From: Ilex aquifolium
Taxonomy: Eukaryota > Streptophyta > Magnoliopsida > Aquifoliales > Aquifoliaceae
Assembly (NCBI GenBank): GCA_951799425.1
Contig: OX637395.1
Span: 10,828,451 to 10,892,450, forward strand
Length of the DNA: 64,000 nucleotides
Direction of reading: 5' to 3'
In this document: one piece after another, positions 3,745 to 56,069 of the stretch
Layout: the number at the start of each line of letters is the position of its first letter
How positions within the stretch are numbered: position 1 is the first letter of the stretch
Position numbers and translations under genes: made by a program
Notes under the pieces: generated by a model
Seen by the model: only the letters and a program-made list of their open reading frames with translations
The model's database searches: none
What the model was told of the DNA's origin: nothing

Positions 3745-3747
3745 TTA

Positions 3748-11534: not shown

Positions 11535-12550
11535 TTTTTTTTAATGTGTATAGATATATCACCATTAAAATGAACAACCAACTATTATAACAAACCCATA
11601 TAAGAAATAATAATACATGGAAATTTAAAACATCCACCGAGTAATGAAGAAAAATCCGAAAAGTTAATGGCTAGATACCGAAAAAAATATTGATCCAAGT
11701 AGACATAATAAAAAGTATTTGGCATGACTTCCCAAAAGTTAATGGCTAGATACCGAAAAAAATATGGCCACATATTTGAAAGGTTAACTTTGGAAACACA
11801 TCAACCGTCAAAAAAATACTTTGGAAGCACATTAGTTACAGGAAAATGGAAAATTTTAAATGACACCTATTGTAGATTAATGTAATTTTATGGACACTCC
11901 TTGTAATTTTTGAAATATTACTATATTCCATTGTAAATTTATGTCCATTTCTCAATGTACCTCTGTCATTAGGATCGTCACGGACAACTTAAAAGAAACA
12001 ATTACAAGAATAGCACCATTTTACAATTTTATTACTGATTTATGGCAGTTTCAAACTAATTTACCAAACTGTGACTTTTTTTAAAAGCAAAGTCAATCCT
12101 ACGTTTTAGAGTAAAACAGACTCACCAATTACGCTTTTTGATGAAAAACAGAATCAACAATACCGATTTCATGAAGGATCATTCTTTTATAATAATGTGT
12201 CATAGTTATAGAAAGTCGAGTTGTTAACCCCGTTAATTTTCTCAAGAAAGCAGGGTTGTTGAATCTGTTTCTTAATCAAAATTTTCCCAATTTTCCATTT
12301 TTTTTATCCAAACTTTTCCTCCTTTCTATATCCACTTTTTCTTATAAGTTCCATTCAACATAACGTTTCATAGAGAAAATAATTTGTTTTTCATAAGTAG
12401 CATTTTTATTGAATTTAACCAAAAATAAAACAATGGTATTAAATTAAACATTAAAATGCTACAAGAAACTAGACATCATGATCAGATACACTTAATATCC
12501 CATAGAACATAAACACTGATGAAAACAAATGGTACTAAAGGAAATAGTTT
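11535..12550. other. AT-rich non-coding DNA, copy A
   Basis: Contains a short direct repeat (the block AAAAGTTAATGGCTAGATACC occurs at about 11,659 and 11,735) and otherwise no domain or RNA gene that I can see. Copy B (60,279-61,326) matches and has about 28 extra bases near 61,015. Confidence 0.6.
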
Positions 12551-12969
12551 TCAACCAAATAGTACAATGCCCTTAAAAGATTTAAGGGTCACATATTTTT
12601 CTCTAAGTGGACCATGTTCATAGCAACATAGCGGTTTACCACACACACACAAACTAGTAGGTAGATATTTTTTGAAGTTATCATCACTTGAATCAGTAAA
12701 GTCGGAAAGATCAAGGTTGTTTCCTCTAAAATTTTAATAATGGCATTGTTAGAATTGAAATGCTCAATTTTTGCATATTTAATTGCATGAAAATGATCAA
12801 ACCGACGTTGAATTTAATCATTTTCATGTTTAAGTCTTGCTATGATCTCGTCATGATTGGTTGAGTTCCATGGATGGTATACATCAACCAAACGTGTCTT
12901 TGGTACTGATATTCCGTGCCAACGACAATATTCTTGAAGTTCACAATATTTATCATAGAACGCTCATCA
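12551..12969 (-). pseudogene. Degenerate protein-like region, unknown family, copy A
   Basis: On the minus strand about 85 codons from 12,962 read well with one stop (segments AFYDKYCELQEYCRWHG and LVDVYHPWNSTNHDEI), then a frameshift leads into a second stretch ending at a stop at 12,551 with LCVCGKPLCCYEHGPL, a Cys-rich knuckle-like motif. I do not recognise the family. It could be the relic of a transposon or host gene with a C-terminal zinc-binding segment. Copy B (61,327-61,740) has the same relic with a different indel, so both are dead. Confidence 0.4.
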
Positions 12970-13347
12970 CCTCAGTGTTCATTCTATATGAGCACCCCAG
13001 AGGCGGATTATAGGTTGCAGACCCAATAATTACATGGCCAACGTGTCCTAAAGAGTCATGATTGTTGATGGGCTTATTGTGGAACTCACGCTTTCATCTA
13101 TATCATGTTACACCACTGTAATATGTCCATAACAAGGCACTATGTTTCATGATGATGGTCGGTCATTTGATCTTTGACGATGGTTGCGTGTATATGAACT
13201 ACGTCATTGATTGCACAATGAAAAACGTTTGTTGGTTTAGCTGGAATGCTTATTTGATGTGTGCCTAGCCATTTTTTTCCATGTTTTACACTGATAGGAC
13301 TGATGCTTTATATAGGCGTGGTTAAGGATCTTTATACCAATGACATT

Positions 13348-13600
13348 GTTAAATATTTGAAATGACTTGACACTGATAAAGTCACGATATGACTTGACAC
13401 TAATAAAGGCAGCATATGACTAAGCACCGCCAAAGTCAGGATATGACATTGATAACACTTCAAAAGTAGACATGACATTGATTAAAGGCCTAATATTAGC
13501 TATACATGACAATGGTTACACAAATAACACTGATAAAGTAAAGATATGACTAAGCACATATAACACTGAAAAAACGGAAAAGACTAAACACCAAATAGAT
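13348..13600. repeat. Degenerate short tandem repeats around TATGACTTGACACTGATAAAG, copy A
   Basis: The units GACTTGACACTGATAAAG, GACTTGACACTAATAAAG, GACTAAGCACCGCCAAAG, GACATTGATAACACTT and similar recur every 20-35 bases. Copy B holds the same array at 62,130-62,380. No coding meaning seen. Confidence 0.6.
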
Positions 13601-14119
13601 ATGACAATACGTATTGTGCATTACATTTTGTATTCTTCATCTTACATATATTCATCTGATAAGTATTGTTCATTATTCAAGACATTATTACACTCGGTAG
13701 ATGTTAACTCTCTCCCATATGCAGTTCCTATCATGTCTGTTGCAAGTTGGAGAAAATAATATCAAAACCTGCGCATCAACGTCTCTCCTTTCGGACTTGA
13801 CTAAATGTTGATTCATAGTCTTCTTTATTCCTTCTTTGCATCGTTAGTAACCGTCGATGTGGCACCCACAAAATGAAACGCCAGTGCATAATGTGTCTGA
13901 TTTATTAACATGAAATGTCCATTCTTGTCATAGTCCATCATAATACCCTTTGACGTGTGTGACTGTTCGAAACTATTGAGCCTCTGAATGTAGACATAAT
14001 TTAGTATATGTAACATGAAGCACGTTTAATGTGTTTATATAGTGGTATTTGCTGAATACAATGCAGGACAAATACAAAATCATGCATTAGTGGGACTTGA
14101 GAGGGTCATAAATTAACCA

Positions 14120-14345
14120 TTATGTAGTTACACAGTGTGTATCAATTCACCAGTATGTAGTTATGTTTCGCCCCAGTGTTGAGTCAATTTATCAGTTTGT
14201 ACTCACACGGTTCTATGTGACTAAGAGGGGCTATAATTACTCACATAATATTTAGTCAATTCACCATTCTGTACTCAAACAATGTTTGGTCAATTCAACA
14301 GTCTCCAGTCACATAGTCATGTTGCAGAGTAACTAAGATTGCCCT
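14120..14345. repeat. Degenerate ~50-base tandem repeats around GTCAATTCACCAGT, copy A
   Basis: Blocks such as TCAATTCACCAGTATGTAGTT, GTCAATTTATCAGTTTGTACT, GTCAATTCACCATTCTGTACT and GTCAATTCAACAGTCTCCAGT alternate with CACA(C/T)GGTTCTATG-like spacers. Same array in B at about 62,895-63,110. Between this and 15,139 there is a pyrimidine-rich stretch (14,580-15,060) with no supported gene. Confidence 0.6.
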
Positions 14346-15144
14346 AATATCAATGTCATAGTCATCAGCACTGGACTGGATCGTTTGGTCGAATCGATAA
14401 ACTGGAGCCTAAACGGTCCGGTATATGAATTAGACCACCTGTGCAACTAAACCGTCTAAAAATCGTAAAATAGGCCAATTTTTTATAAAATCAGTGAACT
14501 TGACAAATTTTTCAAACCGGACAATTCGGATTTCAAGTAATATAAAAAACAAAAATTCCTTTCTTTTTGGGCAATTTTGCCCTAAATTAGTTCAATTTGT
14601 CGCCAATCTCCAGTCCTCTCTCCACTTCTCAATTCTTTTTGCTTCTCTAGGCATAATGACAAACAGGCACAGGAGACTCACATCTCCATCTCCACTTGAT
14701 CTCTCTCTACTCTAGCTTCGGTCCTTCAAGCTTCAACTCAGACTCAAGTGCTCAACTCAACGCCTTAGCCACTCAATGTCTCCTCCCTTCTACTTCTTTC
14801 TGTAAGTGTATGTCTTTTTTTTTTCTCTCTCTCTCTACCCCTCTCTCTCATGATTCACGAATCTCACTCAGACTCAGTCATTCTCAAGACATATGTCGTC
14901 AATCTCCTTCTAGAGAATTTGGAGTTTGGACCTTCTCGGCTTCTCCACTTGATCTCTTTCCTCCAGTGGCCTTAAGCCCTCTCTTTCTGTCTTTCTCTTT
15001 CTCCCACCCCACACGTAGAGCACACACTCACTACCTCACTCAATCTCTTCACCATGCCACAGACCCACACTCGACGTATATTGGTTGATAATTATGTCTA
15101 GATACCAATCGACTCAACCTCTACCTTAATTCAGCATTGTAATT

Positions 15145-15891
15145 TGTAAAAATAATTATAGATCTTACTTCTAGATTTATGATTGGAATTAGGAAAAACG
15201 GCTACTGAACTTTTGACCAAAGCAACAAATATTAGACTTATGATGTGAGCAAAATAACTATAAGTGTTGTAATCTAAAATTAGAAATAAAGCATGCAAAT
15301 AGTGGTTAGATCATTAAAATATAAGATGCGATTTAAACGAATACATGCAGTTTATATAAACAAAATAAATTGATTTGGAAAGAGCTGGCCTGCGAGTCCG
15401 AGAGGCGTGTGATCACTGTCCTAAAACAGCTGAGTCTCCCCACGTGAGGGTACTGACGGACACCAGCAACTCCAAGATCCAATCCAGACGCTCGCAGCAG
15501 CATCTTCTCAATGGTCACGTCCACTGGAAGGTTAGGATGAACCTGACTCGAATCGAGTTGCTCGAATAACAAATAAAAGAAGATGATTGTATATATCTAT
15601 ATTGCTTGTATAAACACTTACTAGAATAGTTGCTTAGGATGGCTTATATAGCAATTGGGTTTGAAAGTGACTCTTCAATTTTAACCGTTTGGCTTGAATA
15701 GCATAAAATCAAATTTAAGGTACTTAATGCTATTCTTGAATATTCACAATAAATCAAATTTAAGGTACTAGATATTATTCTTGAATATTCACAATAAATA
15801 GGATAAAAATCTGTAACTGAAAAATTCAAAATGTAAACATAATTTCAATGAAAATTCAATTGAAGTTTTAAAACTTAATTTTATTCTTACA
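15145..15891 (-). repeat. Copia-2 left (3') LTR
   Basis: 747 bases from TGTAAAAATAATTATAG to TTTTATTCTTACA, followed by the polypurine tract complement ATCCCCCACAAG. Lacks a stretch present in the right LTR at about 34,212 (CGTGGCTGAGAATTGTCTCT). Confidence 0.95.
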
Positions 15892-17761: not shown

Positions 17762-19337
17762 CTAGTCACAGGCGAGTATGTCAAAATAATCTATCCCTTT
17801 CTTTTGAGTAAATCCTTTAGCCACCAATCTAGCTTTATATTTATCTATACTCCCATCGGGTTTTAGTTTCTTCTTGAATATCCACTTACACCCAATACCT
17901 TTGCTTCCAGGAGGCAATTCTACTATCTCCCAAGTATTATTAAGCAATATAGATTCAATTTCACTATTAATAGCCTCCTTCCAAAAATGTGCATCTATAG
18001 AAGACATAGCTTCTTTATATGTCGTTGGCTCTCCTTCTACTAGAAAAGTAAAAAATCCTTCTCCTAAGTCCTTCTTTATTCTTGGTCTTTTACTTCTCCT
18101 TAACTCTACATGTTGTTCTATATTTTTCTCTATGGGACCAATAGAACTAGTAGAAGGTTGATCACTAGTTGAAGGTGTTTCTCTTACTTGACTAGGCATT
18201 GTATTTTTAAAAGGAAAAATATCTTCAAAAAATGTAGCATCTCTAGATTCAATTATAGTATTGTTTGAAATTCCACTAATTTTCGAGTTAATAACTAAGA
18301 ATCTATTAGCGCTACTATTTTGGGCATATTCTACAAAGACAGTATCTACGGTCTTAGGACTTATTTTCTTTCTCTTTGGTTCGGGAATAGCTATCTTAGC
18401 TAAACACCCACACATTTTCATGATGCTAAGGTTAGGAACTCTTCCCTTCCATATCTCATATGGAGTTTTCTCATTATCTTTAACATATACTCTATTCAAG
18501 ATGAAACAAGCACTAAGTATAGCTTCCCCCCACAAATTATCAGATAAGTCAGAACTAGTGAACATTGAATTTACCATATCCATTAAGGTTCTATTCTTTC
18601 TTTTAGCTACCCCATTTGATTGAGGAGAATAAGGAGGAGTCACTTCATGTATTATTCAATGTTCTTCACAAAATATACTAAGGTCAGTTAGAGTATATTC
18701 ACCTCCTCTATCGGACCTTAGTCTTTTCACTTTTCTCTCTAATTGATTTTCTACCTCATTTTTATATATCTTAAACTTATTAAATACTTCATCTTTGTTC
18801 TTAATAAGGTAAATATAACAATATTTAGAACAATCATCTATAAAAGTTACAAAATATTTATTTTTGGCTCTTGTTGGCGGTATACTAGAATCACATACAT
18901 CACTATGTATAAGTTCTAGAAGTTGGGTATTCATTTCTACGCTTTTATGAGGTTTTCTAGTTTGTTTGGCTTTTACAAAAAATTCACACTTATGTTTAAA
19001 ATCTACATGAGATTTGGGAATAAGATTGAGATCCATCATCCTTTTGATTTTCTTTAGACTTATGTGTCCTAATCTTCCATGCCATACATTGCAAGATTCA
19101 ACATTGAAAACTTGATGAGAAATTTCATTAACTTCCGAAAGTACATTCAATTTAAATAAACCATCACAAATATATCCTTTGCCTACAAATATATCATTCC
19201 AAGTTATCACAACTTTATTTGACTCCATTACAACCTTATAACCTTGTTGGACTAAGGACGACCCACTAACTAAATTTCTTCTAATGTCAAGAACATGTCG
19301 CACTCCCTTCAAGATCAATGTCTTCCCAGATGTCATC
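17762..19337 (-). pseudogene. Copia-2 pol, pre-integrase zinc region, integrase and start of RT
   Basis: From the Gypsy junction at 19,337 the frame reads KTLILKGVRHV, WHGRLGHISLKKIKR, HSDVCDSS, SDRGGEYTL, then (after a frame break at about 18,650) SPQSNGVAKRKNRTL and the Copia linker into NTWEIVELPPG. As in Copia-1, the Glu of NGVAERKNRT is Lys (codon at 18,602-18,604). The zinc-region CEIC of Copia-1 is CEFF here, losing a metal ligand. The open frame appears to run on into the Gypsy LTR, but that is junction sequence. Confidence 0.88.
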
Positions 19338-19910
19338 TGATGGGCCAGACCCAAAAGGCCCAAAACCATGCTGAAGCCCAATTACAACCAAAGGCTCAAA
19401 CTGATGAAGACTCAGCAGGCCCAATGAGATCCAAGCCCAGTTAAACTTATCAGGAGCTACATCAGCTTGGCTACGACATCAAGGGAGCACTCAAGACCCT
19501 CACCTCCTCTACCACCTTGGAAGCGGTCAACCTAGACCGAGTCTCATGGAGAACACATCAACGGCCTCACCTGTTGAGGAGAAGCCGCAAGCCCCACCAT
19601 AATAGTTGGATAGTTGCTATTAAGTAGCCCAAATCTGTTGGGGAACGACTATAAATTGTAAGCCCTACCAACACTTGGGGGCATCACACTCAACAGAGCA
19701 CATAACTCATCTTCCTCTCTGAGCTTGTACTCTCTGCTTTCCCTACATCCCTGAGCTAATAAAATAATCCGGCAACTCTAGCCATTAAAAAGTGGACGTA
19801 GGTCACATTGACCGAACCACTATAATTCTTGTCTTCTCTCTCAACTTTAATTACAGCCTTTTTCCAATTACTTGACAGGTGGTGTACAAAGTCAATTTTG
19901 TGCATCATCA
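19338..19910 (+). repeat. Gypsy 5' LTR
   Basis: 573 bases, TGATGGGCCAGACCC to TGTGCATCATCA, immediately followed by the primer binding site. Contains CTATAAATTG at about 19,649, the likely promoter TATA. Confidence 0.95.
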
Positions 19911-21304: not shown

Positions 21305-23617
21305 GAGAGGATGAAGTCTCCTCCAAACCGTAGGAACCCAAACAAGTACTGTCGCTTTCATCACGACCATGGTCATGACACCGACGACTGCTATGACCTC
21401 AAAAGACAAATTGAGGTCCTCATTCAACGTGGACACCTTCACCAGTATGTTGTCGGAAGGGGGCCGGCGCCGCCGCCACCTCACAATCAAGAAGATCCAC
21501 ATCCCATTGGAGAAATTCACACCATTTCTGGAGGACTTGCAGGAGGAGGAGAATCCCTCTCCGCCATGAAGGCTCATGCCAGGAAAGCTAGGCACCTTGA
21601 TGATGAGCTACCATCCAAGGCGCCCAAACATGGCATCAACGAGGTCATATCCTTCTCAGACAAGGACTTGGAAGGAATCCAACACCCCCATGACGACCCT
21701 CTAGTACTCACCATGACTGTTGCCAATTTCCAAGTACGTCTCCTCAATGAAAACAAGGAAGCCACAAGAGGCATTGCAAGTGGAGGTCCTGGACCCAAGG
21801 GATGACACCACCATAGAAAAAGGAGAACCAGTTGAGGAGCTCACCCCTGCGATCTTGGATGAGGAGCATCCAGACAGAAGAGTATACATTGGCTCCCCCC
21901 TCTCTGAAGACCTTACTCACCAGCTAATAGACTTTTTGAAACATAACATGGACATTTTTGCATGGTCACATGCAGACCTTGAAGGGATTGACCCAGACGT
22001 CGCCACCCACCGCCTCAATGTCGACCCTCGCCACAAACCTGTTCGCCAAAAGCTAAGAGGCGCCTCCACTGAAAGGGCCCAAGCGATGGACAAAGAGGTA
22101 GGGAAACTGATAAAGAATGGGGCGGTCAGGGAAGTGGCATACCCTAAATGGATTTTAAATGTGGTGATGGTAACCAAAGCCAATGGAAAATGACGCCTCT
22201 GTGTCGAATTTACTGAGCTCAACAAGGCGTGTCCAAAAGATAGCTATCCGCTACCACGGATCGACCTCATCATCGACACTACAGCAGGGCATGAACTGCT
22301 CACCTTCCTGGATGCATATTCTGGATACAACCAAATCAGCATGCACCCCCCAGACCAGGAGAAGACATCATTTATCACTCCGAAGGGGACCTACTGCTAC
22401 AAGGTCATGCCCTTCGGGTTGAAGAACGCAGGGGCAACCTACCAACAGTTGGTGAACAGAATGTTCGAGTCTCAGATTGGGCGAACGATGGAGTTCTACG
22501 TTGATGACATGTTAGTGAAAAGTCTCGCTGCAGCAGACCACATTGACCACCTCCAAGAAACCTTCAACGTTCTCAGGCCGTACCACATGAAGCTGAATCT
22601 TGAGAAATGCGCCTTCGGCGTAGGGTCAGGAAAGTTCTTAGGCTTTATGATCAACTAGAGGGGGATTGAGGCGAACCCTGATAAGATCAAGGCAATCCTC
22701 GACATGAAGTCACCTTCCTCAACCAAGGAAGCGCCTCAACGAAAGAATTGCAGCACTTAACAGGCTTGTCGCCAAGTCTGCAGACAAGTGTCTGCCCTTC
22801 TTCAAAATTCTCCGAAAGGCTTTTGATTGGGGACCTGAGGCAGAGGAATCCTTTCAAAGGCTCAAGGCTTACTTAGCTACACCTCCCCTCCTTTCACATG
22901 CCACTCCAGGAGAAACTCTGTATTTATACCTGTCTGTCTCTTCATCGGCAGTAAGCTCAGTCCTTGTCAGAAATAGTGATGGAATGCAAAGACCTATCTA
23001 CTATGTGAGTAGAACATACAGGGGAGCAAAAGTCAGATATTCAAGGCTTGAAAAACTAGCGCTCGCCCTGATCTCAGCGGCAAGGCGCCTACGACACTAC
23101 TTTCAAAGTCACAACATTGTTGTCGATACAGACTAACCTCTAAAAAGGGTCCTGGGAAAGCCAGACATATCCGGGAGGCTCCTTAAGTGGGCAGTGAAAC
23201 TTGGCGAATTTGATATGCAGTACCAACCAAGGGTGGCCATCAAGGCACAAGCACTGGCGGATTTCATTGCTGAGCTTACTCCAGCAGAGGAGGAGGACAA
23301 CGAGCTTTCCACCTTGCCCGGCAAGGACACCTCAACTCCCGACGAGGACGTACAGAAGCTCGGTGAAGACAGTCTAACGCCCAGCAAAGATACCTAGGCG
23401 CCCAAGTCATCCCAGGCGCCCAGACCATCACATCAGATGCCCAAGCACACTGGTCTGGCGCCCAGACCCCCTCAGGCGCCCAAGCTGGCGTCCAGACAGC
23501 TCCCTCAGGCACCCAGGCTGGCGCCCAGACATCTCCCTCTAGCACCCAAGCATCTCCCTTTGGCTCCCAGCCTAGTACCCAGGCAGCCCAGCCTAGCGCC
23601 TTGCCTCCTGCGGAAAC
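21305..23617 (+). pseudogene. Gypsy pol part 1: zinc finger, RT, RNase H; protease deleted
   Basis: Zinc-binding C..H..H..C (YCRFHHDHGHDTDDCYDL), then FSDKDLEG and LVLTMTVANFQV at about 21,735, where the Asp-Ser/Thr-Gly protease should begin. The sequence instead jumps to a post-protease segment, so the protease is missing. RT from ~21,960: NVDPRHKPVRQK, FLDAYSGYNQI, MPFGLKNAGATYQ, YVDDMLVKS (22,499 on), with TGA for Trp in GK(W)RLC at 22,191 and TAG for Gln at about 22,657. Ty3-type RNase H 22,800-23,280 (ALISAARRLRHYF) with TAA at 23,135. After it comes a linker of repeated (Q/R)APRL-like units, ended by the solo LTR insertion. Confidence 0.9.
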
Positions 23618-25815
23618 TGATTAACCATCAAAAGTGCTGTTTTATTATATTTAATAATTGGTTAATTTCATATTATTTGTGATTAAATGTGCTAAATTCC
23701 TTGATTTTCTAATTTGATACTTTTTCTAGTTGTTGATTTATTTTGCAGGTAAATTGGTTGATTTAAAGTAATAATGGATAATACAAGTGAAGCAATCACT
23801 AGAGGAAGAATCACAATTGATAAGGATTGAAGAGTCAAGGTTGAGATAGGAAGACTTGAAGATAAATCAGCAATTTAATCCTTATAAGAGGCCAAGTTAG
23901 GGTGTGTTTGTTAACCCAAATTCAACACTTAAAATGAATGTATTCAGCACTTATTAATTAAGTCTGTTTGATAACCAAAATTTAAACTCTCTTAATATGT
24001 TAAGTGCTCCTTAAAAACAGGCTACAATATTAAGTAAGAGATCCCTTACTTAATTCTGAAAGCTGAAAACACTCAACAAAATCATCTTTAATAATATTTA
24101 CAATATGATAATTATACCCCAAAATATGTTACAATCCTATTAAAACTCTAATTAGTCTTATCTCCAAAACTCCTAACTTATATATTCTCCTTGTCGATCT
24201 CTTTTTTTTTTTTTCTTTCATTTGTCTTCTGTAACAAAAATATACATACATAATTATAATTACACACACAAACGCACGCACTGCATACACACAATTACAC
24301 ACAGACATATGCACTGCACACACACACAGCGCACACACATATTGTTAATAAAATCTAATTTATTGTATTTTTTCAATATTATTTGATTATTTATTATTTA
24401 TTATTCTTTTTTTTATCAGATGTTATTTCACTTATTATGTTATTTAATTTGTTATTGTTCACTTATTGTGTTATTTAGATGTTATTTATTTATTTATTTT
24501 GATCAAATATTTGTTAAATGTACACTACAATATAATAATAGTGATTATGATTTATGTTAATGACATATTTTATAAATATTTTCAAATTAAAGAGTGGAAG
24601 GGTAAAACTGAAAATTAATTTATTTTCAGACGTCAGCTCTATTTAGTTATCAAACAGTTTAATTCAATTCAGTACTTAAATTTCAGTGAATACCAAACAG
24701 TCCACAAATTCAGCATTCAGCTTTCAACTATCAGACTTCAGCTTTCAGCTTTCAGACTTCAGCTTTCAGTTTTATCAAACACCACCTTAGAAGAAAACTC
24801 ATTTAAAGTTGGATTAGGAAAGTTTCCTAGAATATAAGGATTTGACACGTCTTCAGTATTTCAGTCATAACGTTTGACTCCGATATCGGATTGACCTGAT
24901 ATTTACGGTGTTGGAAAGAAGATTTCCAGGGCTACAAAAGTGTAGTTCACGAAAATTTCGTGAATCAACCTCTAAATATGCGAAATTCAAGCTCGAAGTC
25001 TGGACAGATTTTGTACCCGCGGGCCCCAAGACTTATGCACGGGATTTAACCTTACAAGACATCTTTTTGGGAAAGGAATTCCTTCCAACCTGTACTTAGG
25101 ATTTATTTTACTATAAATAAGGGCTCTCATCTATTGAGAGAGGGGAGATTAGGATTTAGATTATTTATTCTTTTTTTTTCATCTTTTTAGTTCGTCATGT
25201 CTGGCTAGAAGGCTAAGCTAGGGCTAGGGGAGAACCTCTCAATGAAGTACGGTAATGTTGTTGACTTTGTGCTTAATGATTTATGATGTTTTGTTAATTT
25301 AACTTCTGATTTTTTAGCAAAGTTTTTATTCTGTAAAAACTCCTGAGTTGTTGTGCCACGTACATCGATTGCTTGAGTTTCCCTGCGAATAAATAACTGG
25401 TTATTCCACGCTTGAGGTAATTATCATTATTTCATAAAATAATATAATTGGATGATTATTCAGGTTCCTGAATAATCTTTTGATTGTAACATTTGGTTTT
25501 CTTACTTGATTTGTTACTTGAATCAACCGACATCTGATTTGTGTTTCAAGTTAAGTTTTGAGTCTTCAATCATTATTGTATGAAATTGAGAGGGAGTACC
25601 CGATGCTTTAGTATTTCAATTATTGTTTTAAAAACCAAATTTATTATTTTCTGATTCCAAAATTCCTACTCAAACAAATTGCAAACAATTTCTTTTTATT
25701 TGTTTTGTGTTTCTTGTTTTCATAATTCCCTGTGGTTCGACCTCGGATTCCCGAGAAATTTATTACTTTGCACAACCTGCACTTGGGTGATCAATTCTAA
25801 AGTTGTAGCAGAGAC
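23613..25815 (+). mobile_element. Solo LTR inserted in the Gypsy pol
   Basis: TGATTAACCATC at 23,618 to AGTTGTAGCA at 25,810, flanked by GAAAC and GAGAC, a 5-base duplication with one mismatch. About 1.3 kb once the nested MITE is removed. Contains CTATAAATAAGGGCTCT (TATA at 25,122-25,129) and the closing block CCCTGTGGTTCGACCTCGG, which resembles the 3' end of Tat/Athila-type LTRs. No internal region remains, so it is a product of LTR-LTR recombination. It disrupts the linker between the two RNase H domains. Confidence 0.8.
23900..24786. mobile_element. Tourist-like MITE inside the solo LTR
   Basis: TTA duplications at 23,897-23,899 and 24,787-24,789; ends GGGTGTGTTTGTTAA and, from the right, GGTGGTGTTTGATAAAA. 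Same family as 3,748-4,457 and 57,867-58,587 but 887 bases long. Part of the extra length is a CA-rich patch with ACACAC and GCAC repeats at 24,255-24,345. Fourth nesting level in this locus. Confidence 0.82.
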
Positions 25816-25829
25816 CCCCCGAGCGTACC

Positions 25830-27557
25830 TCTCTATCACTCTAGAAACTCTACGTGGACGGCTCCTCAACCAGTGAAGGAGGTAGAGCAGGCCTCATCCT
25901 GATTAGTCTTGACGGTACCCCCATCAAGTACGCAGTGAAGCTTCACTTCATTGCCTCCAACAATGAAGCAGAATACGAAGCTCTTCTCTCTGGCCTAAGG
26001 TTGGAAACAGAAATGGAAGCCCAACATCTTATTTCTTATAGTGACTCTCAGCTGATAGTCAACCAAGTAAAGGGCGAGTTTGAGGCAAAAGGTGCCAAGA
26101 TGCAGGAGTACCTCGCCCTAGTGAAAGCCTTCGTCACTAAGTTTCAATACTTCCAAATCCAACACATCCCAAGAGAAGACAACATGGCCGCATATGCACT
26201 TGTTAGGCTCGCCTCATCTTCCCAAGACCTCTCAGGACCAACACTCATTGGCCATCAGTTTGAACCAAACAAGTTAGATGTGGGAGCCGCAATTGTCAAC
26301 TGTGCTTCCACCGAATCAAACTGGATGACCCCGATAAGGGCATACCTCCAGGAGGGTACATTACCGGACAATCCCCTCGAGGCTAGGAAGCTTAGGATGA
26401 GAGCTTCCAAATTCACTATCTTACAAGACATCCTTTACAAGAAAGGCTACTCCTTGCCATTGTTGCGGTGCCTTTCACCCGAAGAAGCTGACTACGCATT
26501 GCGGGAGATCTATGAAGGAATTTGTGGGAATCACTCCGGAGGTCGCTCTCTCGCCCACAAGGCACTCCCACAAGGCTACTTCTGGCCTAGCATGGTAAGG
26601 GACACCCAGGGGTTCCCTAAGAAGTGTGACAAGTGTCAGCACTTGGCTACTGTGCCCAGGCTGCCGCCAGAGGAACTCACGGTCATCACAAGTCCGTGGC
26701 CTTTCTCCAAATAGGGCATCGACATCTTAGGGCCCCTACCTCTCAGCAAAGGACAGTGCAAATTTGTGGTGGTGGCAGTCGACTACTTCACGAAGTAGGC
26801 AGAGGCCGAACCCTTAGCAAAAATAACAGATGCGAAGGTGAAAGACTTCATTTGGAAGAACCTGGTATGCCGCTTCGGGATACCCCATGCCATTGTTAGT
26901 GAAAATGCCAAGCAGTTTGACAACAAGCTCCTCAACTCTTTCTACTCCGATCTTCAGATAAAACAACCTCATTCTAGCCCAGCACATCCGCAAGAAAATG
27001 AGCAAGCAGAAGTCATGGTGAGAACAGTGCTACGCAACCTGAAGACAAGGCTCGAAAGAGCGAAGGATCTTTGGGTTGACGAGCTCCCAGGTGTCCTATG
27101 GGCTTACAGAACCGCGCCGAGAACCCCAACCGGAGAGACCCCCTTCTCCCTCGCCTTTGGAACTGAGGCATTCATCCCTGTTGAGATCGGGGTTCATTCT
27201 CTAAGGGTCCAACGCCACGACCCCGTCACCAACGAAGAAGAACTCCGCATCAACCTCAACTTGGTAGAGGAGGCAAGGGAGATGGCTGTGGTCCGCAACG
27301 CCGAGTACAAGCGCCGCATGGCGAAGTTCTACAACTCGAGGGTGAAGCATCATTCCTTCCAACCAGGTGACTTGGTGCTCAAAAAAGTGATCCTCGCCAC
27401 AAAGGACTCACGCGAAGGGAAGCTCGGACCAAATTGGGAAGGACCATACCTCGTAACAGAAGTGGTGAGGCCAGGTACATACAAGATCCAAAATTTTGAG
27501 GGGAAGGTCTTACTCTATCCGTGGAACGCTGAGCACTTGAAGAGGTACTACCAATGA
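25830..27557 (+). pseudogene. Gypsy pol part 2: archaeal-like RNase H and integrase
   Basis: Archaeal-like RNase H from 25,851: YVDGSSTSEGGRAG, NNEAEYEALLSGL, SDSQLIVNQVKGEF supply the Asp, Glu and Asp ligands. Integrase zinc domain 26,510-26,645 (GNHSGG ... AHK ... CDKCQ). Catalytic core: first Asp in GIDILGPL (26,719), second position SENAKQF has Glu where Asp is usual (26,901), third region HPQENEQAEV. TAG replaces Trp at 26,713 and 26,796. The C-terminal GDLVLKK ... LGPNWEGPYLV tail ends at TGA 27,555. The domain order RT, RNase H, archaeal-like RNase H, integrase is diagnostic of the Tat lineage. Inactive. Confidence 0.9.
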
Positions 27558-27978
27558 CACCTTGAGAGTGTCAAAGTAATAAACAGTGGGAACTTGGTTT
27601 TATTTTCTACCTTTTTTGGGATTATTACGTAGTATTCAATGTACTTTTTTGGGGTTATTACCTAATATTGTTTGACATAAGCAATGGATGAATAAAATTC
27701 TCTACATTTTACTCCAAAATGATTTTTGCATTTTCATTCAATTTCAAAGGAGTATCAGTACAAAAGTAAGACTATGAACCGTCTTTCTAAAAAAAAAAAT
27801 AAAGTAAAAATCAAAAGTCTCAAATACTCTAGCTACTCTCATGGTCGTCCTCATCCTCCTCCTCTTCACCTTCCTCATCATCCTCAGCCTTGCCAGAGCC
27901 TCCATCGCCATTATCAGGCACCTCAGTTGGCATAAAGCGTGAGACATCAATATCAGGAAAGGCAGCTGAGATCTTCCT
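27558..27978. other. Spacer after Gypsy pol
   Basis: About 420 bases separating the convergent ends of pol (plus) and the antisense gene (minus). Contains AT-rich sequence with AATAAA-like signals (plus strand near 27,690). On the minus strand a CCTCCTCCTC-rich acidic tail lies just downstream of the antisense stop. Confidence 0.6.
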
Positions 27979-30900
27979 TCAGAGCTCATCATAACCGTCA
28001 ATGAAGGCATCTGCAAGGCCATTCATCAAGTCCCTCTCAGTTGTGACAACCCTCTCCTCAGCCTGGAAAGCTCTCTCATGAGCTGCCTTCACCTCTGCCT
28101 CCGCGGCAGCCTCTCTGAGCGTGGCCCTCTCACGGACCTTCACAAGCTCAGCCTCTCTGAGCGCATCCCTCTCATGGGTTGCCAAAAGCTCAGACTCAAG
28201 ATTAGTCGTCTTCTCACGGGCCTCCTCAAGTTCAGCCTCTAGCTTGGCCGCCCTCTCATGGGACGCCAAAAGATCCGTCTCCCTCAACGCGGCCATCTCA
28301 CGGATCGCCACAAGCTCAGCCTGAGAAGCCCTACTAGCAGCTTCAAACTCAGCAATCCTCACCCGAGCCGCAAGGAGCTCATTTTGCATAACATCATGAT
28401 CTTGCTTCATCTGATGATGACTATAAGTCCTTAAAAGTAAATACATGGATGCAGTAGAAGCCTGAAGAAAGATAAAAGTCAGAAGAAGCTTAAAAAAGGA
28501 CTGGAGAAAGGGAGACAACTAACCCTTACCTGAGCCAGGCCTTCCAAAAAAGTGCGAACAATTCCTTCGGTACCCAGGGCGTTAATCCCGATAACATCGT
28601 TGGAAAACATAAACCGCCCAAGTCGATCCCTTATGATTGATGCGTTACCCAACATAGAGCTGATCTGAATCGGTGCACTTCTTGGAGTTTCCACAGGAGG
28701 AGTCGAGGAACCTGGAGCAGAAGGTGTTGTCAAAGGGGTCTCCGAAGTAACGAGTACAGATGAAGGAGTCACCGCCCGAGGAGGCACTTGATGGGGGCAC
28801 ACCCAAGGAACCACTGGAGGGGTTGCTTGAAGAGAGTTCACCTCGATTGACACATTTGGAGAAGTCACTTGGGAGGCATCCTCTTTCCTCGCCACCTTGG
28901 GAGGAGGAAGGCTCCTACCAGAGAGGCGGGGGACCCAATCACCCCCTATATATCTCTACAGAAGCAATAAAATGCTATAGATAAAAAACACCAAACAGAG
29001 GCGAAAAGTATAAAAACAATCATCGTACATTTCCTCTTCCAAGAGGAACCACCAGACTTTGAAGAGGGAGCATCGACCTTAGCAGAAACCGAAGAGGAAA
29101 CACTGACTCCTCCATCTTTGAGCACGTGAGCTCCAAAGTCCCTTGTAGGATGAGCTCGCACGGCCTCAAGCTTCCACTCCTGACCCTTGGAGAGCATAGA
29201 GGAACCTACAAGGAATGTGGTGAAGTACACAGTCTACAAGGAATGAAGAAAGAGAAGGGTAAAAATATGGGACGTACCAACTTTCTTTGAAGTAACCCAT
29301 CGTGATGGTACCAATGCCCTATCAACATCCGAAGCCCACTCTCTGCCAACAAATATGAAGTGAGACTTCCAGCTATGACAGTTGGAGGGAAACCCAGTAA
29401 TCAACTTGCCTCCCCTCGAAGTGAAATAATACCAACCTCGGTTAGAAGCAGAAGTCTCACTCAGGTAATAGGCTGCATGAAACTCAACAGGGGAGGCATC
29501 TTCATAATGCACTTTTTTCCACAATTCAAGAAAGGCCAGCATAACCCTCCAACCATTAGGCGTCAGCCGCCCAGGTGTCAGTGAAAAGTAATTCAAGATG
29601 TCACAAACGGAAGAAGGCATGGGGAGCCTGAGCCCAACTTCAAGCATTTCCTCAAAAATGACAATGTCACAAGACGAGTCATCACTAGCGGGCTCACCCA
29701 TTTCAGCTCGGCGGCACAACACAGTCGAAGGAATGTGGTATGCAGAAATAATCCGCGAAATATCGGCGTCTGAAACTAGAGTGCTAGACAGGGTACTTAC
29801 TTTGGACCCGTCGTCGTCACAGGCTACTTTGCCTTTGTGTTTTTTGCTGTGAGGACTCGAAGGGTTACCCAAGCCACTGCCAGGGTCTTTGCCATAAAAG
29901 GTGCCCAGAGTGCCCACCTCTTAGGCTGAATAACCAGCAGTCCCACGTACATCAGAGGCCCTTTTGCTCGCCACGTCCGCATGCACAACACCAGGGCCAA
30001 CACTACCCAGCTCAGCCCCCGCCACCTGGGCCACCGTGGTCTTGACGCCCAATGCTTGGGTCGCCCAGGACTCGGTGCCTAGGGCCTGGGTCGCCTTGCC
30101 AGCGGCGACCAGCCCCATTGCCTCTCTCTCCATGCATACATGGGCGACCAGCTCAACGTGGGCACGAGTCGAACTCCCCAAAGGGGCGCCCGCAGTTCTT
30201 TGGTCGCCTGGACTCTCCAAGTCAGTACCCAAGGCATGCCCATGCTCACCCAAACAGCCGGAGCTCCTTACGTCGCTAATACGAGTATTCGACACCCTCA
30301 TTTGCTCGCCTAAGGAGCTGCCCAACGCAGCAGGCTGCTCGCCTAAACACCCCCGTGCAGCAAGTTCGCCCAATCCACCCCCCTGCTCGCCCAAGACATC
30401 CAGGACATCAGTCTGGGCACTCAAATTGCTCAAACCAGCGCCTATGGCGCCCAGATCGCCCAAACCAGCGCCTATGGCGCCCAGGTCGCCGCCCAATGCA
30501 GCGCCCAAGTCGCTGCCTGCTCGCCCACTTTGCTTGCCGACCACAGGGGCTGCTCGCCCAATGTCCTGGGAAGCTCGTCTGCTGGCCTGCGTGGATTCAG
30601 CACCCATCAAACCGGCGCCCAGCACCTCCATCCCGACGCCCAAAGCTGGGGCCGCTTGCTCCTCAGGTCTCGCCTCACCCGATTGCTCCTCAACAGGGAG
30701 AACAACCCGCAAACTCAAGGCACAGGCAGCAGTGGCGCCCCGCGTCTGTTCGCCCACCACACAGGCTGCAGCGCCTGCTAGCCCAACCCCTGCACGCCAA
30801 AGCCTTGCTCAGCTGGACGCCCAAACTCGCCTACGCCAATCTCCCTCTCATCCTGTGGTGCACTAACGGCTACAGGAAGCTCCCCGTGCGCGCGGATGGC

Positions 30901-30999
30901 GGCAGTGGCCAGCGGGTTTCCCGTCTTCCTCTCCACTCCATCTCCTTCGATCTCCACCATTCCAATGGAGTTTTGCCCACCACCTTCCTCAATCGGCAT
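27979..30999 (-). pseudogene. Antisense spliced gene of the Gypsy (putative gypsy-type transposon protein)
   Basis: Four exons join in frame: exon 1 ending at 29,278 (donor GTACGT), exon 2 29,205-29,029 (acceptor TTGTAG, donor GTACGA), exon 3 28,945-28,530 (acceptor ATATAG, donor GTAAGG), exon 4 28,461-27,979 (acceptor CTTCAG). Exon 1 encodes the plant gypsy-type transposon domain (IFEEMLEVGLRLPMPS, LTPNGWRVMLAFLELW). Exon 3 is Ser/Pro/Thr-rich, and exon 4 is a long Glu/Ala/Arg coiled coil with repeated ATLREAE-like units. An Ala/Gly/Leu-rich N-terminal part (30,808-29,921, LGEQ and GAGLG repeats) lies in the same frame before a TAA at 29,918. A possible first Met at 30,999 needs a frameshift near 30,800. 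Function of such antisense proteins in Tat elements is unknown. The exon core is open; the gene as a whole is broken. Confidence 0.8.
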
Positions 31000-31028
31000 G
31001 GTCCCCTTGGATACTCCACTCAAAAGAT

Positions 31029-31292
31029 CTTGGAAAAGCTTAGGGAGAGCACTCTCCTTCACTCTCTCAAGTTTTTATAGGAGAAATTTGGGCTATCAAG
31101 GTTTTCAAGAAGGAGCTCAATCTCAAAGTGAATGAAATGGGTAGAATGGAGAAGAAAGTTCTTGGAAAAGCTTAGGGAGAGCACTCTCCTTCACTCTCTC
31201 AAGTTTTTATAGGAGAAATTTGGGCTATCAAGGTTTTCAAGAAGGAGCTCAATCTCAAAGTGAATGAAATGGGTAGAATGGAGAAGAAAGTT
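31029..31292. repeat. Two tandem copies of a 132-base unit
   Basis: 31,029-31,160 and 31,161-31,292 are essentially identical, beginning CTTGGAAAAGCTTAGGG and ending GAGAAGAAAGTT. They lie in the presumed 5' leader of the antisense gene, between its TATA box and first Met. Near identity shows a recent local duplication. Confidence 0.95.
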
Positions 31293-31294
31293 CA

Positions 31295-31302
31295 TATTTA
31301 TA
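31295..31302 (-). promoter_or_regulatory. TATA box for the antisense gene
   Basis: On the minus strand GGCTATAAATATGAAC lies directly upstream of the duplicated leader and about 300 bases before the Met at 30,999. It is inside the Gypsy but outside its LTR, so the antisense gene probably has its own promoter. No transcript data. Confidence 0.5.
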
Positions 31303-31510
31303 GCCTAGGGTTTACAAAAGAGGGAAAAACCCCAAATTGAAAATCAAGGGCTCTCTTAAAAATCCAAGAAAAAGTGTAAAAGACTTGATGTATTCAGTGA
31401 GGCAAAAATGTATCATGAATGGAAGAGTCATCTAGCAGAGGAAGTCTCAACCACCCAGAAGCTCAAGATTCAAACAAATGCCCCCTTCCCCAAGTTTCCT
31501 CGGGCACGGG

Positions 31511-31525: not shown

Positions 31526-32099
31526 TGATGGGCCAAATCCAAAAGGCCCAAAACCATGCTGAAGCCCAATTACAACCAAAAGCTCAAACTTATGAAGACT
31601 CAGCAGGCCCAATGAGATCCAAGTCCAGTTAAACCCATCAGGAGCTACATCAGCTTGGCTACGACATCAAGGGAGCACTCAAGACCCTCACCTCGTCTAC
31701 CACCTTGGAAGCGGTCAACCTTGACCAAGTCTCATGGAGAACACCTCAACGGCCTCACCCGTTGAGGAGAAGCCGCAAGCCCCACCAGAATAGTTGGATA
31801 GTTGCTATTAAGTAGCCCAAATCTGTTGGAGAACGACTATAAATTGTAAGCCCCACCAACACTTGGGGGGCATCACACTCAACAGAACATATAACTCATC
31901 TCCCTCTCTGAGCTTGTACTCTCTACTTTCCCTACATCCCTGAGCTAATAAAATAATCCAGCAACTCTAGCCATTAAAAAGTGGACGTAGGTCACATTGA
32001 CCGAACCACTATAATTCTTGTCTTCTCTCTCTACTTTAATTACTGCCTTTTTCCAATTACTTGACAGGTGGTGTACAAAGTCAATTTTGTGCATCATCA
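31526..32099 (+). repeat. Gypsy 3' LTR
   Basis: 574 bases matching 19,338-19,910 with about two dozen differences by eye and one single-base indel in a G run. Ends GCATCATCA, followed by the TSD TCATC and the resumption of Copia-2. Confidence 0.95.
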
Positions 32100-33232
32100 T
32101 CATCTTTAACTCTATGTCTCCAATTCCAAGTACTTGTGCGACGAAATCATTTCCTAGCGTTACACTTCCTCCACTTGATTTATGATAAGATTTAAATAAA
32201 TCATGATCAAAGCAAACATGTATATTAGCCTCAGAGTCTAACCACCAATCTTTATCCTGATAGGTAAAGTTAACTAGGGAACAATTATACCTAAAGGAGG
32301 CTTCGGCAGAATTATCTCCATCCACTAGAACATTGACTTGGACTCTTGGACCTCTTTGATTTGGCTTGGGCTTTGGCTTAAACGGTTCAGTCTTCTTGTA
32401 GTAGCAATCCTTAGCCAAGTGATTGGTTCGTCCACAAACAAAGCAAGGCATCCTCTCTCTCCCTAAGCCCTTGAACTTATTATTATTATTATTGTTGTTG
32501 TTGTTGTTGTTTTGATAGTTTTGTTTTTGACCATTATTAGGACGACCATTAAACCTCTTATTCTTAAAATTTCTTCCCCTAGGTTGGAAATTGTTATGGT
32601 TGTTGTTACTATTTTCCACTAGGTTTACCTTAGGGGGTCTCTCATTTTGTGAGTTTGTACCAACCCTATGCTTCTCTTCAACCCTAAGCATGTTTATAGT
32701 TTGGGTTAAGATTAACTCTCCTTGCTTATGCCTAAGGGTCTTAGCAAAATTATCCCAAGAAGGTGGAAGTTTGTCAATGAAGCTTGAAACTTTAAAATCT
32801 TCACTAAATGTAGTTCCACCCTTTTCAATTTTCCTAAAAAATTCTTGATATTCATGAATTTGATCACCAACGAGTTTATTCTCCACCATTTTATACCTAT
32901 TAAAATTAGAGATCATAAACCATTTAATTCCTGCATCAACAATCCCATACTCGGCCTCTAAAGTGTTCCAAAGTACTTTAGCGGTTGTCGTAGTATTATG
33001 GTAGACATCATAAAGATGATCAGAAAGAGCACTTAGAATTCTATTATGACAATGGTATTCGATTTGTTCAGGGGTATACTATGAAGAGGACACTTGACTA
33101 GATTAAAGCTCTTCTATAGTAGAAATTAAGCCTAGTACGGTCAACTAATATTGAACTTGTTTTTGCCACCTACAAAAAATTTGACCACTAAATTTTTCGG
33201 GTTTGACACTATTAGCTTCTTCTAGTCTAGTC
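32100..33232 (-). pseudogene. Copia-2 gag, zinc knuckle and protease start
   Basis: Gag ATG at 33,230-33,232 (MTRLEEANSVKPEKFSG). The frame then meets stops (about 33,147 and 33,100) and a shift before the well-preserved part 32,916-32,100: IHEYQEFFRKIEKGG, LPPSWDNFAKTLRHKQGEL, an Asn-run, the CCHC knuckle CFVCGRTNHLAKDC, and the protease start WWLDSEANIHVC. The expected Gly of Asp-Ser-Gly is Glu. The Gypsy interrupts the protease right after IGDIELKM. It continues at 19,337 on the other side. Confidence 0.88.
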
Positions 33233-40559: not shown

Positions 40560-41490
40560 TTACACCGAGTGCAACAACACCTCCGGATATACAATATTTG
40601 TCGTGGTAGCTGATCCATCAGGAGGGAGAAGGACACTGATGCAATCGGCCGAGGTGCATCTAGACATGGCCACATATAGGTGACCGTGGCTGAATACAGG
40701 CGAGCGCAGATCTACACCAACAAACTTGATTGACTGGCCTTGTGACTTGTTGATTGTCATAGCATATGTTAAGCATACTGGGAATTGGCGGCTAGTCATT
40801 TGAAATGGTAAATCTTTAGACGACGGTGATAATGATATCCGCGGGATGAAACACAAATTCCCAGATTTGTCACCAGTTAGAATTCTAGTCTCAATAACCC
40901 GCGATGCACACTTGACAACCATAAGTTTTGTCCCGTTACAGAGGCCATCTTTTGCGCCTATATTCCTCAACAAAATGATGGGGCACCCGACCTTTAGCTC
41001 CAACTTGAAAGGCGGTAAACCTGACGGGTTTAGGGAATTCAGAAACTCACTTGGATATTGATTAGTGGTAGAACGATGGAGTTCGTCCTCATCCGACACC
41101 TTGTCAGCTGCCAAGTAGGTATACGTCTCGCCAGGGTAAATTTGTAGAGCAGCATCATTGATAGAGCAGACATCATCATTTTGAGCAAAAAGAATTGTGC
41201 GCTCAGTTAAGTAGGATGGGGTTACCGCACTGAGCACATCTAGTTGTGGATAAACTCTAGAAATTAGTTCATGCAGAGTTTGAAACCTGTGTATCGTTGG
41301 AGGAAGTTCCACAGTATCTTGAGTACTGATCCCAATCTAAGTTTGATTGTGAATTTAGTCAGTACATATAAATGAATAATTAGACGGTTTTATATAAATA
41401 TCTATCTATAATATAAATCACCTCTTTCAAGAAGGATGCGTGAGAAGAATTTGCAGGATGATTGATATTCAAACACATGTTTATGTCCAA
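40560..41490 (-). pseudogene. Helitron Pif1-like helicase, C-terminal exons only
   Basis: Main exon 41,336-40,560 (acceptor AACTTAG, TAA at 40,560-40,562) with [34 protein letters not shown] and [18 protein letters not shown], the C-terminal motifs of the Helitron RepHel helicase. An upstream exon 41,490-41,422 (LDINMCLNINHPANSSHASF) joins through a GTGATT donor. The Rep endonuclease and the N-terminal helicase motifs (Walker A and B) are missing; a full protein is well over 1,000 residues. So this is a truncated, non-autonomous remnant. I found no convincing TC 5' end or hairpin-CTRR 3' end. Confidence 0.88.
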
Positions 41491-46898: not shown

Positions 46899-48623
46899 CA
46901 CTTTGCTGGGTTCGACTCCTCTACGGTAGGCAGGAAACCGCATGACATGCGGTTAAGTGGAACGGCACCGTTTGGTGCTTTATGTAATTTTTTTTTTTTA
47001 ACAGTCCATACCAAAAACGAGGTCGTTTTTTGTCCTTGAAATTTCAGCCTTGAAATCCCTTCTTCTTTGTTAGACTTCAACAGCAAAGCCTCAGTTAAAA
47101 AAAAAAAACAGCAAAGCCTTGCGACATCAGCAGATCTGGGCGACTTCAGGCAAGTCCGACGATCTTAGGCAGCTCCGACTTCACATTCATTGCCTTGTTT
47201 CTTTAGGTGCCTATCATCAGCAATTAAGCTTACCAAATCCATTCTAGCATTTTCTCAAACAGGTGGAGGGTGGGGAGGTGTGTGTGAGCGATTTGGTTGA
47301 AGGAGAAAAATGAAGACATAGAGAAATGAGAAAGGGAGGGGAGAAGGAGAGAGAGAGATGAGATAGCAACTAGCTTGTGTGCTCCAACTATAATGTGAAG
47401 AATGTAAAATTTATCACTAGTTTTCTTCGTGAAAGCATCTCTAATTTCAACATCAAATGCTCATAGAATTAAATTTCATCTGAATTCTTGTGCCCTTCTC
47501 ATCTGAATGTTATACTTCCAAACTTTTTTCCCTTTGTCGATTCCCACAGTTGAATGATTTCCCATATCACTTCCATCCTTAACACCATCAACATCATCAC
47601 GAGCATAATATGAATCCCCTGAGAATTCCTGTTCATTGAGGAACTTTGCATGGAGAGTTTCTTAATCCTGATCCGATCATGCCATCTTCCAACTAAGCTT
47701 CTCATAGTAAAATTTCAAGGTCCTCATCCTCTCAATCTTATGCATTCCAACTGTTTTTCATCCATTGCTTCCAATTATCTGACAAACTAACCAAGAATTT
47801 ACATCTCAGTCTCCATCCTCTCATCATTACTTACATCCCTACATCAGAATCAGAATAGCCATATAACTCTACTTTTTCCCTTATATAATTCTCTTTTCTT
47901 TTGCCTCCTTTGGCAGAAGAAGCAATCCATTTTTTTCGAACTCGAACTAGTTTTCCCCATCTCCATATTCTGTTCATGAGATCAATATACCGATAACGCA
48001 TTCCCATCAGCGGATGCTTCTCAACCAAAACATCCTTCATATACACCTCCCTCAAAACCACAGTTTGAGTCCTAATCTTATTGGATACATAAAATATCCC
48101 AGGATGGTGCACCAAAGCCTTCTTAAACCTTTTATCAAACTCCAAATAATCCCCCAAACAAAACATATTGTCTTTCTCTGCCTCCTTCCCCACCATCAAA
48201 TGAAGCAACTCATGAATTACCCCAACTGTCCACTTCTCTGCCTGATCACTGTTCGGCGCCAAATGAAACGCATCCTCATAAGGCAAAATGTAAGACAAAT
48301 TTCCCCCCTCATCAACCCAATTCCTCACTTTTTTCTCCAAATCAAACCTCTCGGAAAATTCATCGGAAACCCAATACGTTGCCTGAAGTCGGAGCTGCCT
48401 GAGAAAGGCTTTGCTGTTTTTTTTTTTTAACTGAGGCTTTGCTGTTGAAGTCTAACGAAGAAGAAGGGATTTCAAGGCTGAAATTTCAGGACCAAAAACG
48501 ACGTCGTTTTTGGTATGGACTGTTAAAAAAAATATTACATAAAGCACCAAACGGTGCCGTTCCACTTAATCGCATGTCATGTGGTTTCCTGCCTACCGTA
48601 GAGGAGCCGAACCCCACTTTGCT
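46899..48623 (-). mobile_element. Pack-MULE carrying a PORR-domain gene fragment
   Basis: Element 46,908-48,614 (1,707 bases) flanked by the perfect 9-base duplication CACTTTGCT (46,899-46,907 and 48,615-48,623). Terminal inverted repeats of about 210 bases (GGGTTCG(A/G)CTCCTCTACGG ... to CAGCAAAGCCT) are highly similar. Nine-base target duplication plus long TIRs are diagnostic of Mutator-like elements. No transposase is present; the interior is host coding sequence, which makes it a Pack-MULE. It sits in the U3 of the large LTR. Confidence 0.93.
47831..48400 (-). pseudogene. Captured PORR-domain (plant organelle RNA recognition) fragment
   Basis: Open from the inner TIR edge to TAA at 47,831, about 190 codons without a stop. 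Motifs: KWTVGVIHELLHLMVGKEAE, DNMFCLGDYLEFDKRFKKAL, HHPGIFYVSNKIRTQTVVL, REVYMKDVLVEKHPLMG. These match the C-terminal half of the PORR domain of WTF1/RPD1-type proteins, which bind organellar RNA and help splice group II introns. The N-terminal half and targeting peptide are missing. The best ATG (MEKKVRN region) is not a true ATG start, so translation would depend on the TIR. A further ~75-codon stretch at 47,705-47,480 may be more captured sequence. Confidence 0.82.
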
Positions 48624-54123: not shown

Positions 54124-54186
54124 CCCCAATACCCCCTTTTTCACCCACCCAAAATTTAATAAACCAGAAATTTTGCCTCAAACAAC

Positions 54187-54194
54187 TATAAATA
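54187..54194 (+). promoter_or_regulatory. TATA box of BBE-like copy B
   Basis: TATAAATA, 56 bases before the ATG at 54,250; identical in copy A. Confidence 0.8.
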
Positions 54195-54249
54195 GCTCAC
54201 ATTTGATCATCTTTTACCCACAAAATCATTGACAATCCAAGGAATCAAA

Positions 54250-56067: not shown

Positions 56068-56069
56068 AG

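Follow-up and report, generated by a model that had tools for sequence, protein, structure and literature searches.

Is the antisense coding sequence between pol and the 3′ long terminal repeat (LTR) of Retand-type Ty3/gypsy retrotransposons a series of separate open reading frames (ORFs), or one gene interrupted by introns? The question is raised by a stretch of 64,000 nucleotides from Ilex aquifolium (contig OX637395.1, positions 10,828,451 to 10,892,450; hereafter the window), which contains such an element and in which four exons on the strand opposite to gag-pol had been proposed from the letters alone (the original prediction). Antisense ORFs with a TRP28 domain are reported for 97% of recently active Retand clusters in a 2025 survey, which poses their role as a question (PMC11963269, Vicient 2025). 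Here we present the structure of the antisense gene, of its relatives in the same genome and of its host element. Judged from sequence comparison, and with a probability of about 85%, the antisense accessory gene of this Retand-like element, of the aORF-3R (TRP28) type, is a conserved gene of four exons and three introns. The original prediction is partly confirmed, i.e. it holds in substance with several corrections.

Exons, introns and protein product

The features of the gene in window coordinates are as follows (the near family is introduced in the next section).

29278..30999, minus strand: exon 1, with an ATG at 30999, a hypervariable Ala/Gly-rich N-terminus, a basic KxKxK motif and the TRP28 domain
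29513-29662, minus strand: TRP28 (Transposase_28, PF04195) domain in exon 1
29206..29277, minus strand: intron 1, 72 nt, phase 1, T 43%
29029..29205, minus strand: exon 2, matched by tblastn in all 7 near-family loci
28956..29028, minus strand: intron 2, 73 nt, phase 1, T 53%
28530..28955, minus strand: exon 3, likewise matched by tblastn in all 7 near-family loci
28462..28529, minus strand: intron 3, 68 nt, phase 0, T 49%
27829..28461, minus strand: exon 4, with a Glu/Ala-rich, coiled-coil-like part followed by an acidic tail, and the stop at 27829-27831

As had been stated, GT-AG is present at all six borders and the junction phases are 1, 1 and 0; the joined frame is open over 29,920-27,979. 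The introns are richer in T (43-53%) than any 70-nt window of the exons (27% on average, at most 40%).

The borders were compared with other copies of the gene. A search of the genome (800 Mb) with 749 nt of the gene as query gave 410 first-look candidates, of which 40 were scored (85-100% identity), and the window and 37 of the 39 other loci were aligned (38 copies). For most counts a set of 32 copies was used, from which the truncated copies L011, L027, L039 and L042 and the near-duplicates L009 and L023 were dropped; L010, which may descend from one insertion together with the window copy, was kept.

Exon 2 and introns 1 and 3 stand as predicted, whereas the end of exon 4 and probably the start of exon 3 are shifted. 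The TGA at 27,979-27,981, at which exon 4 had been ended, is confined to 3 of 38 copies (L009, L024 and that of the window), and 35 of 38 have a common stop further on, at 27,829-27,831, after the acidic tail; judged from these copies, the TGA is a lesion and the true end of exon 4 is at 27,829. The acceptor of intron 2 probably lies 10 nt upstream of the one chosen before, with exon 3 starting at 28,955, because 37 of 38 copies retain the AG at 28,957-28,956 (vs. 33 of 38 for the former acceptor) and this AG gives an intron of 73 nt, the near family having 73-75 nt (7 loci). The former acceptor is in frame in the window because of indels in the window copy.

Regarding exon 1, the predicted 3′ border at 29,278 is retained, but the exon reaches back to about 30,999 and is broken in the window copy. 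The claim that no stop is met across the four exons holds from 29,920 on; a stop at 29,921-29,923 lies just upstream and, by comparison with other copies, in which the frame continues through the Ala/Gly-rich region, is a lesion. The frame of the upstream ATG (30,999) is disconnected from the downstream frame in the window copy; in L014 the stretch from this ATG is in one frame with TRP28. The region upstream of 29,920 is hypervariable between copies. In the N-terminal region of the 29 G+C-rich copies (of 32), the TRP28 frame is free of stops over 600 nt in 15, compared with 1 in each other same-strand frame, and the mean number of stops per 600 nt is 1.8 in the TRP28 frame and 7.4 and 7.0 in the others. 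The repetitive Ala/Gly-rich N-terminal coding region (window 29951-30671, and L012-L045) is often in frame and poorly alignable.

A transposon domain had been predicted for the exon 1 product, and the corresponding search gave a PF04195 match with E=4.7e-11 and 43.2 bits (curated cut-off 26.2) at residues 87-136. The segment ahead of the TRP28 domain contains three lysines that do not vary among 26 sequences and possibly form a basic patch. Exon 4 appears to encode a Glu/Ala-rich, coiled-coil-like part, judged from its composition. A sequence search toward a known DNA-binding fold gave no match, and a search for relatives in viral contigs gave 10 pattern matches, none of which was confirmed.

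Conservation among copies and between families

Among the 32 copies, GT or AG is kept at donor 1 in 32, acceptor 1 in 32, donor 2 in 31, donor 3 in 31 and acceptor 3 in 28; for intron 2, the acceptor at 28,956 is kept in 31 and the one first proposed in 27. A 30-mer across the exon 3/intron 3 border yielded 95 genomic matches (at most 3 mismatches), with GT retained in 94 (counted by eye), whereas the spliced exon 3/exon 4 30-mer yielded 0 matches. Copies with precise intron loss were sought and none was found among two sets of 40 scored candidates (of 450 and 228 first-look candidates); the matches break at the junctions, with one exception that spans junction 1 with extra bases and is read as a 28-nt deletion inside intron 1.

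The exons have evolved under purifying selection at the codon level. Substitutions were classed as shared (in at least 3 copies, mostly predating insertion) or rare (in 1-2 copies, mostly decay after insertion), and the ratio of replacement to silent changes (N/S) was determined for each class in the 32 copies. Shared and rare N/S were 0.52 and 2.16 in exon 1 (p=1e-11), 0.95 and 2.28 in exon 2 (p=0.043), 1.39 and 2.72 in exon 3 (counted from 28945; p=0.0096), and 0.99 and 2.44 over all exons (p=4e-13), these p-values overstating independence because the copies are related. In 4 of 4 exons the frame of the splice model had the lowest shared N/S of the three frames. The distribution of exon 1 changes over the three codon positions was 0.158/0.093/0.411 for shared changes and 0.395/0.35/0.35, i.e. 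with little periodicity, for rare ones.

A genome-wide search with PF04195 gave 5,837 first-look candidates in I. aquifolium, of which the best-scored 150 all passed the cut-off; no candidates were found in 14 control genomes. The same score and frame length recur in many of the rows, which suggests that the genome contains very young TRP28 families. Twenty TRP28 loci chosen for differing frame lengths were fetched, 7 of which belong to a family near that of the window (L053-L056, L059, L060 and L062) and 13 to a second clade.

In the near family, all four window exons were matched in pieces of 40-73% identity with gaps at the introns, and each of the 7 loci has three GT-AG introns, 65-92 nt long and in phases 1, 1 and 0 (anchored at the ends of the exon matches, with L055 and L056 adjusted by hand). 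The donor of intron 1 is homologous in all 7, and phase 1 is obtained by reading on from TRP28 in 6; L055 has a frame shift before intron 1. Stops were found in L054 (exon 4), L056 (exons 3/4) and L059 (exon 1).

The second clade is far more distant, the 11 aligned loci being 26-29% identical to the window exon 1. In all 13 loci the sequence homologous to donor 1 is GTGAGT, together with an AG acceptor that fits exon 2; donor 1 is in phase 1 when read on from TRP28 in 12 of 13 (L049 is shifted). Donor 3 is GTAAGY in phase 0 to its motif in 12 of 13, the end motif of the other locus not having been found. A less selected, though non-random, sample of further TRP28 loci was formed from every seventh row (4 to 137) of the 150 best-scored TRP28 rows (n=20). 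Donor 1, as GTGAG or GTAAG, was at the homologous place in 20 of 20 and in phase 1 in 18 of 20.

The median dN/dS between families was 0.17 for exon 1 (23 of 28 pairs finite) and 0.59 for exon 4 (28 pairs). The antisense position is likewise conserved: an integrase was found at 10 of the 20 loci, and in 10 of 10 of these diverse loci it is on the strand opposite to the TRP28 gene. In L053, L054, L055, L059, L060 and L062 the integrase is 84-91% identical to that of the window and the antisense gene pieces 40-73%; these identities suggest a higher rate of evolution in the accessory gene than in pol.

Promoter and host element

The presumed ends of the message are described by the following features.

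31295..31313, minus strand: candidate antisense core promoter, AAACCCTAGG-C-TATAAATA, with its TATA at 31,302, about 300 nt upstream of the ATG at 30,999
31023..31286, minus strand: probable 5′ untranslated region (UTR), with a 132-bp tandem duplication and TATAAAAA in each copy
27599..27604, minus strand: candidate poly(A) signal AATAAA, a sequence match only

A second candidate poly(A) signal, also a sequence match, is at 27,738. Regarding the promoter, CTATAAATA was present exactly in 25 and loosely in 1 of 36 copies (excluding L009 and L023) and absent in 10. In the 25 copies, column conservation was 0.97-0.98 in two ten-base blocks around the motif, compared with 0.58 at -90 and 0.55 at +40; the choice of copies by the motif affects the first nine columns but not the neighbouring ones. 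A similar block is present in 6 of 7 near-family loci. The AAACCCTAGG-C-TATAAATA region resembles the plant telo-box.

The host of the gene is, by its architecture and TRP28, a Retand-type Ty3/gypsy LTR retrotransposon of 12.8 kb, with the following parts.

19338..19910: 5′ LTR, 96.0% identical to 31526-32099 over 574 columns
22194..22658, plus strand: pol reverse transcriptase fragment, PF00078 with E=7e-29
25845..27554, plus strand: pol RNase H and integrase, PF13456 and PF00075, with PF17921 and rve below cut-offs
31526..32099: 3′ LTR, immediately preceded by the PPT-like ATTGGGGGGCAAA (purine-rich tract)

Regarding its membership in Ty3/gypsy, the LTRs, a perfect 5-bp target-site duplication (TCATC; 19333-19337 and 32100-32104) and the order reverse transcriptase, RNase H, integrase are present, the integrase matches of the window being under the Pfam cut-offs. 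The RNase H/integrase part contains two in-frame stops in translation (26712-26714 and 26796-26798). The 3.9 kb between the end of pol (27,557) and the 3′ LTR hold the minus-strand frames, including the antisense TRP28 ORF in the position typical of Retand. These values (region about 3.9 kb, LTR about 574 bp) are within the ranges given in the survey text for Retand, i.e. 2,933-6,566 bp for the POL-3′LTR region and 315-1,194 bp for the LTR (PMC11963269).

The element was inserted into a Ty1-copia element. An AT-rich stretch between reverse transcriptase and RNase H (22,660-25,840), without clear LTR-like repeats, is probably an insertion. The window also contains a tandem segmental repeat of about 54 kb with 97-98% identity (1-4711 and 54113-58842; 10489-15226 and 59209-64000), which carries two berberine-bridge-enzyme-like genes (324-1769 and 54196-55881; FAD_binding_4 and BBE). 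The two closest Retand copies on the same contig, L009 and L010, may be one insertion duplicated along with the segment. A Pif1-like helicase fragment (possibly a Helitron remnant) and a piece of a PORR-domain gene are on the minus strand at 40563-41336 and 47834-48451.

Competing explanations and significance

A spliced, separately promoted antisense gene, as originally proposed, is the best reading of these sequences, given introns shared across clades, frame-specific selection and a TATA block. Several observations weigh against it. First, an open frame alone proves little. One or two introns never suffice to keep a chain open over 29,920-27,979, but with three GT-AG introns (60-130 nt each, exons of at least 60 nt) 4,242 chains reach the same stop without interruption. 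Of the acceptors tried for exons 2 and 3 in the original prediction, only the chosen ones had been said to keep the frame; in view of this number the chain is not unique, and the open-frame argument by itself was dropped as non-specific. Second, only 4 of 11 second-clade loci (L046, L047, L057 and L058) gave, by rule, an intron 2 that begins with GTAA, is in phase 1 and has open flanks, the others having no or poor candidates; nor did any of the 13 loci of this clade, fetched to 2 kb before TRP28, show the promoter block. Third, stop density in the N-terminal region partly reflects composition, because two of the three opposite-strand frames are also low (averages of 7.9, 2.6 and 3.3 stops per 600 nt). 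Fourth, the AlphaFold models are poor (pLDDT 47 for exon 1 from 26 sequences and 60 for the TRP28 core from 34), with no PDB match at E<=0.001 (best Foldseek E 1.8).

The conservation data are also mixed. In exon 4 the N/S of shared and rare changes (1.67 and 2.64, 32 copies) differs only marginally (p=0.055), and raw intron identity between families is similar to exon identity, not lower. With the earlier exon 3 start, shared indels (in at least 2 copies) were multiples of three in 10 of 12 exonic cases, compared with 0 of 5 in introns and 3 of 13 in the 3′ UTR. With the start at 28,955, 5 of 15 exonic ones are not multiples of three (0 of 2 intronic ones are), because length variants of a G run then count as exon 3; the claim that shared exonic indels keep the frame was given up at 10 of 15. 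Of the 5 frame-changing indels, 3 fall in one homopolymer at the start of exon 3. This homopolymer (28947 area, L009-L045) is variable in length and shifts the frame in many copies, and because its length variants are shared, some subfamilies may have spread with a damaged accessory gene. The comparison of exon with intron conservation that had been suggested as a check thus bears out the prediction only in part, the shared exon changes being poor in replacements, but the raw identities similar and one homopolymer at the start of exon 3 varying in length, with a change of frame, in many copies. The gene is not fully intact in many copies owing to indels, and the window's own copy is degenerate, being broken by the two stops described above and by a frame break near 30.8 kb.

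These lesions, seen in the window copy and in many relatives, are what would be expected if the introns were old but the gene were now a relic in decaying or non-autonomous copies, with its antisense RNA at most a source of double-stranded and small interfering RNA; the overlap with the gag-pol genomic RNA would yield double-stranded RNA, an idea put forward in the text of PMC7264820. We consider this unlikely, as the shared changes, which mostly predate insertion, are biased towards silent ones in exons 1-3 and marginally in exon 4, and a pure RNA role would not need selection at the codon level.

Less probable still is that the antisense ORFs are coding but unspliced, yielding separate short proteins from independent or polycistronic minus-strand RNAs, with the GT-AG borders coincidental. 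The number of open chains shows how easily such borders arise by chance, the 2025 survey counts separate antisense ORFs, and the word intron does not occur in its main text or in that of a 2020 review. However, donor and acceptor positions and phases agree between far-diverged clades, in the every-seventh sample the first in-frame stop follows the donor within 60 nt in 12 of 20 loci (before the donor in 6, none in the fetched stretch in 2), and no part of the window's exons is as rich in U as the introns. Capture of a host gene together with its introns would account for the gene-like introns and promoter-like block, but is very improbable in view of the PF04195 candidates, so abundant here and absent from the control genomes, the recurrence of the position antisense to integrase in divergent families, and the survey text, which gives no similarity outside transposable elements (PMC11963269).

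For the spliced antisense gene the following course is proposed. RNA polymerase II would start on the minus strand at the TATA promoter, about 0.2 kb inward of the 3′ LTR, and transcribe toward pol; the three short U-rich introns would be spliced out, and the message would end between 27.83 and 27.6 kb. The protein would consist, in this order, of a variable Ala/Gly-rich N-terminus, a basic patch, TRP28, a linker rich in Ser and Pro, a coiled coil and an acidic tail, and would most likely act as an oligomeric DNA- or chromatin-associated nuclear helper of the element. The introns would survive reverse transcription because plus-strand genomic RNA cannot splice minus-strand introns, a point on which the original prediction was sound; the genomic RNA carries them as complement only, and each new copy of the element would keep the spliced gene.

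HBZ of HTLV-1 is a protein of the bZIP type, and Ogre is a Ty3/gypsy lineage related to the Retand-type host element. Grande gene23 of maize (Gomez-Orte et al. 2013), as described in PMC7264820 and PMC11963269, is likewise an accessory gene in antisense orientation, located between pol and the 3′ LTR, has an antisense transcript from its own promoter and encodes a nuclear protein; because of this and of the DNA-binding capacity predicted for TRP28 (PMC11963269), a nuclear role is suggested here by analogy. HBZ, too, is a nuclear regulator made from a spliced antisense message of a retroelement, but its promoter is TATA-less and in the 3′ LTR (PMC10186651), whereas the TATA block here is inside the element. 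Ogre also has an intron within a Ty3/gypsy element, but according to PMC6317226 this is a partially spliced intron of sense-strand gag-pol and not, as here, on the minus strand.

The Retand TRP28 ORFs of the survey agree with the present gene in being antisense, matching PF04195 and lying between pol and the 3′ LTR; they differ in being presented there as single-exon ORFs (cut-off 600 bp; PMC11963269), whereas here there is one four-exon gene. No description of introns in antisense TRP28 ORFs was found in the literature searched, although Gomez-Orte et al. 2013 and other older papers could hold one; the ORFs are known, and in that literature their exon structure is apparently undescribed. The 2020 review calls for antisense and spliced transcripts to be examined. 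The separate Smc-like antisense ORFs of the survey may be exon 4 of the antisense gene. With less assurance than for the holly gene itself, we lean towards the wider proposal that a single ancient gene with four exons (phases 1-1-0) underlies the antisense ORFs reported from Retand elements across flowering plants, with the Smc-like and other separate ORFs as its later exons, a conserved TATA promoter in the near clade, and an antisense orientation that lets the element keep a gene expressed from the chromosome and spliced.

If the gene is spliced, single-exon annotations yield truncated proteins, and tests of localisation and DNA binding need the joined product. A rule may be suggested for retroelements, namely that introns persist in them when they face away from the genomic RNA.

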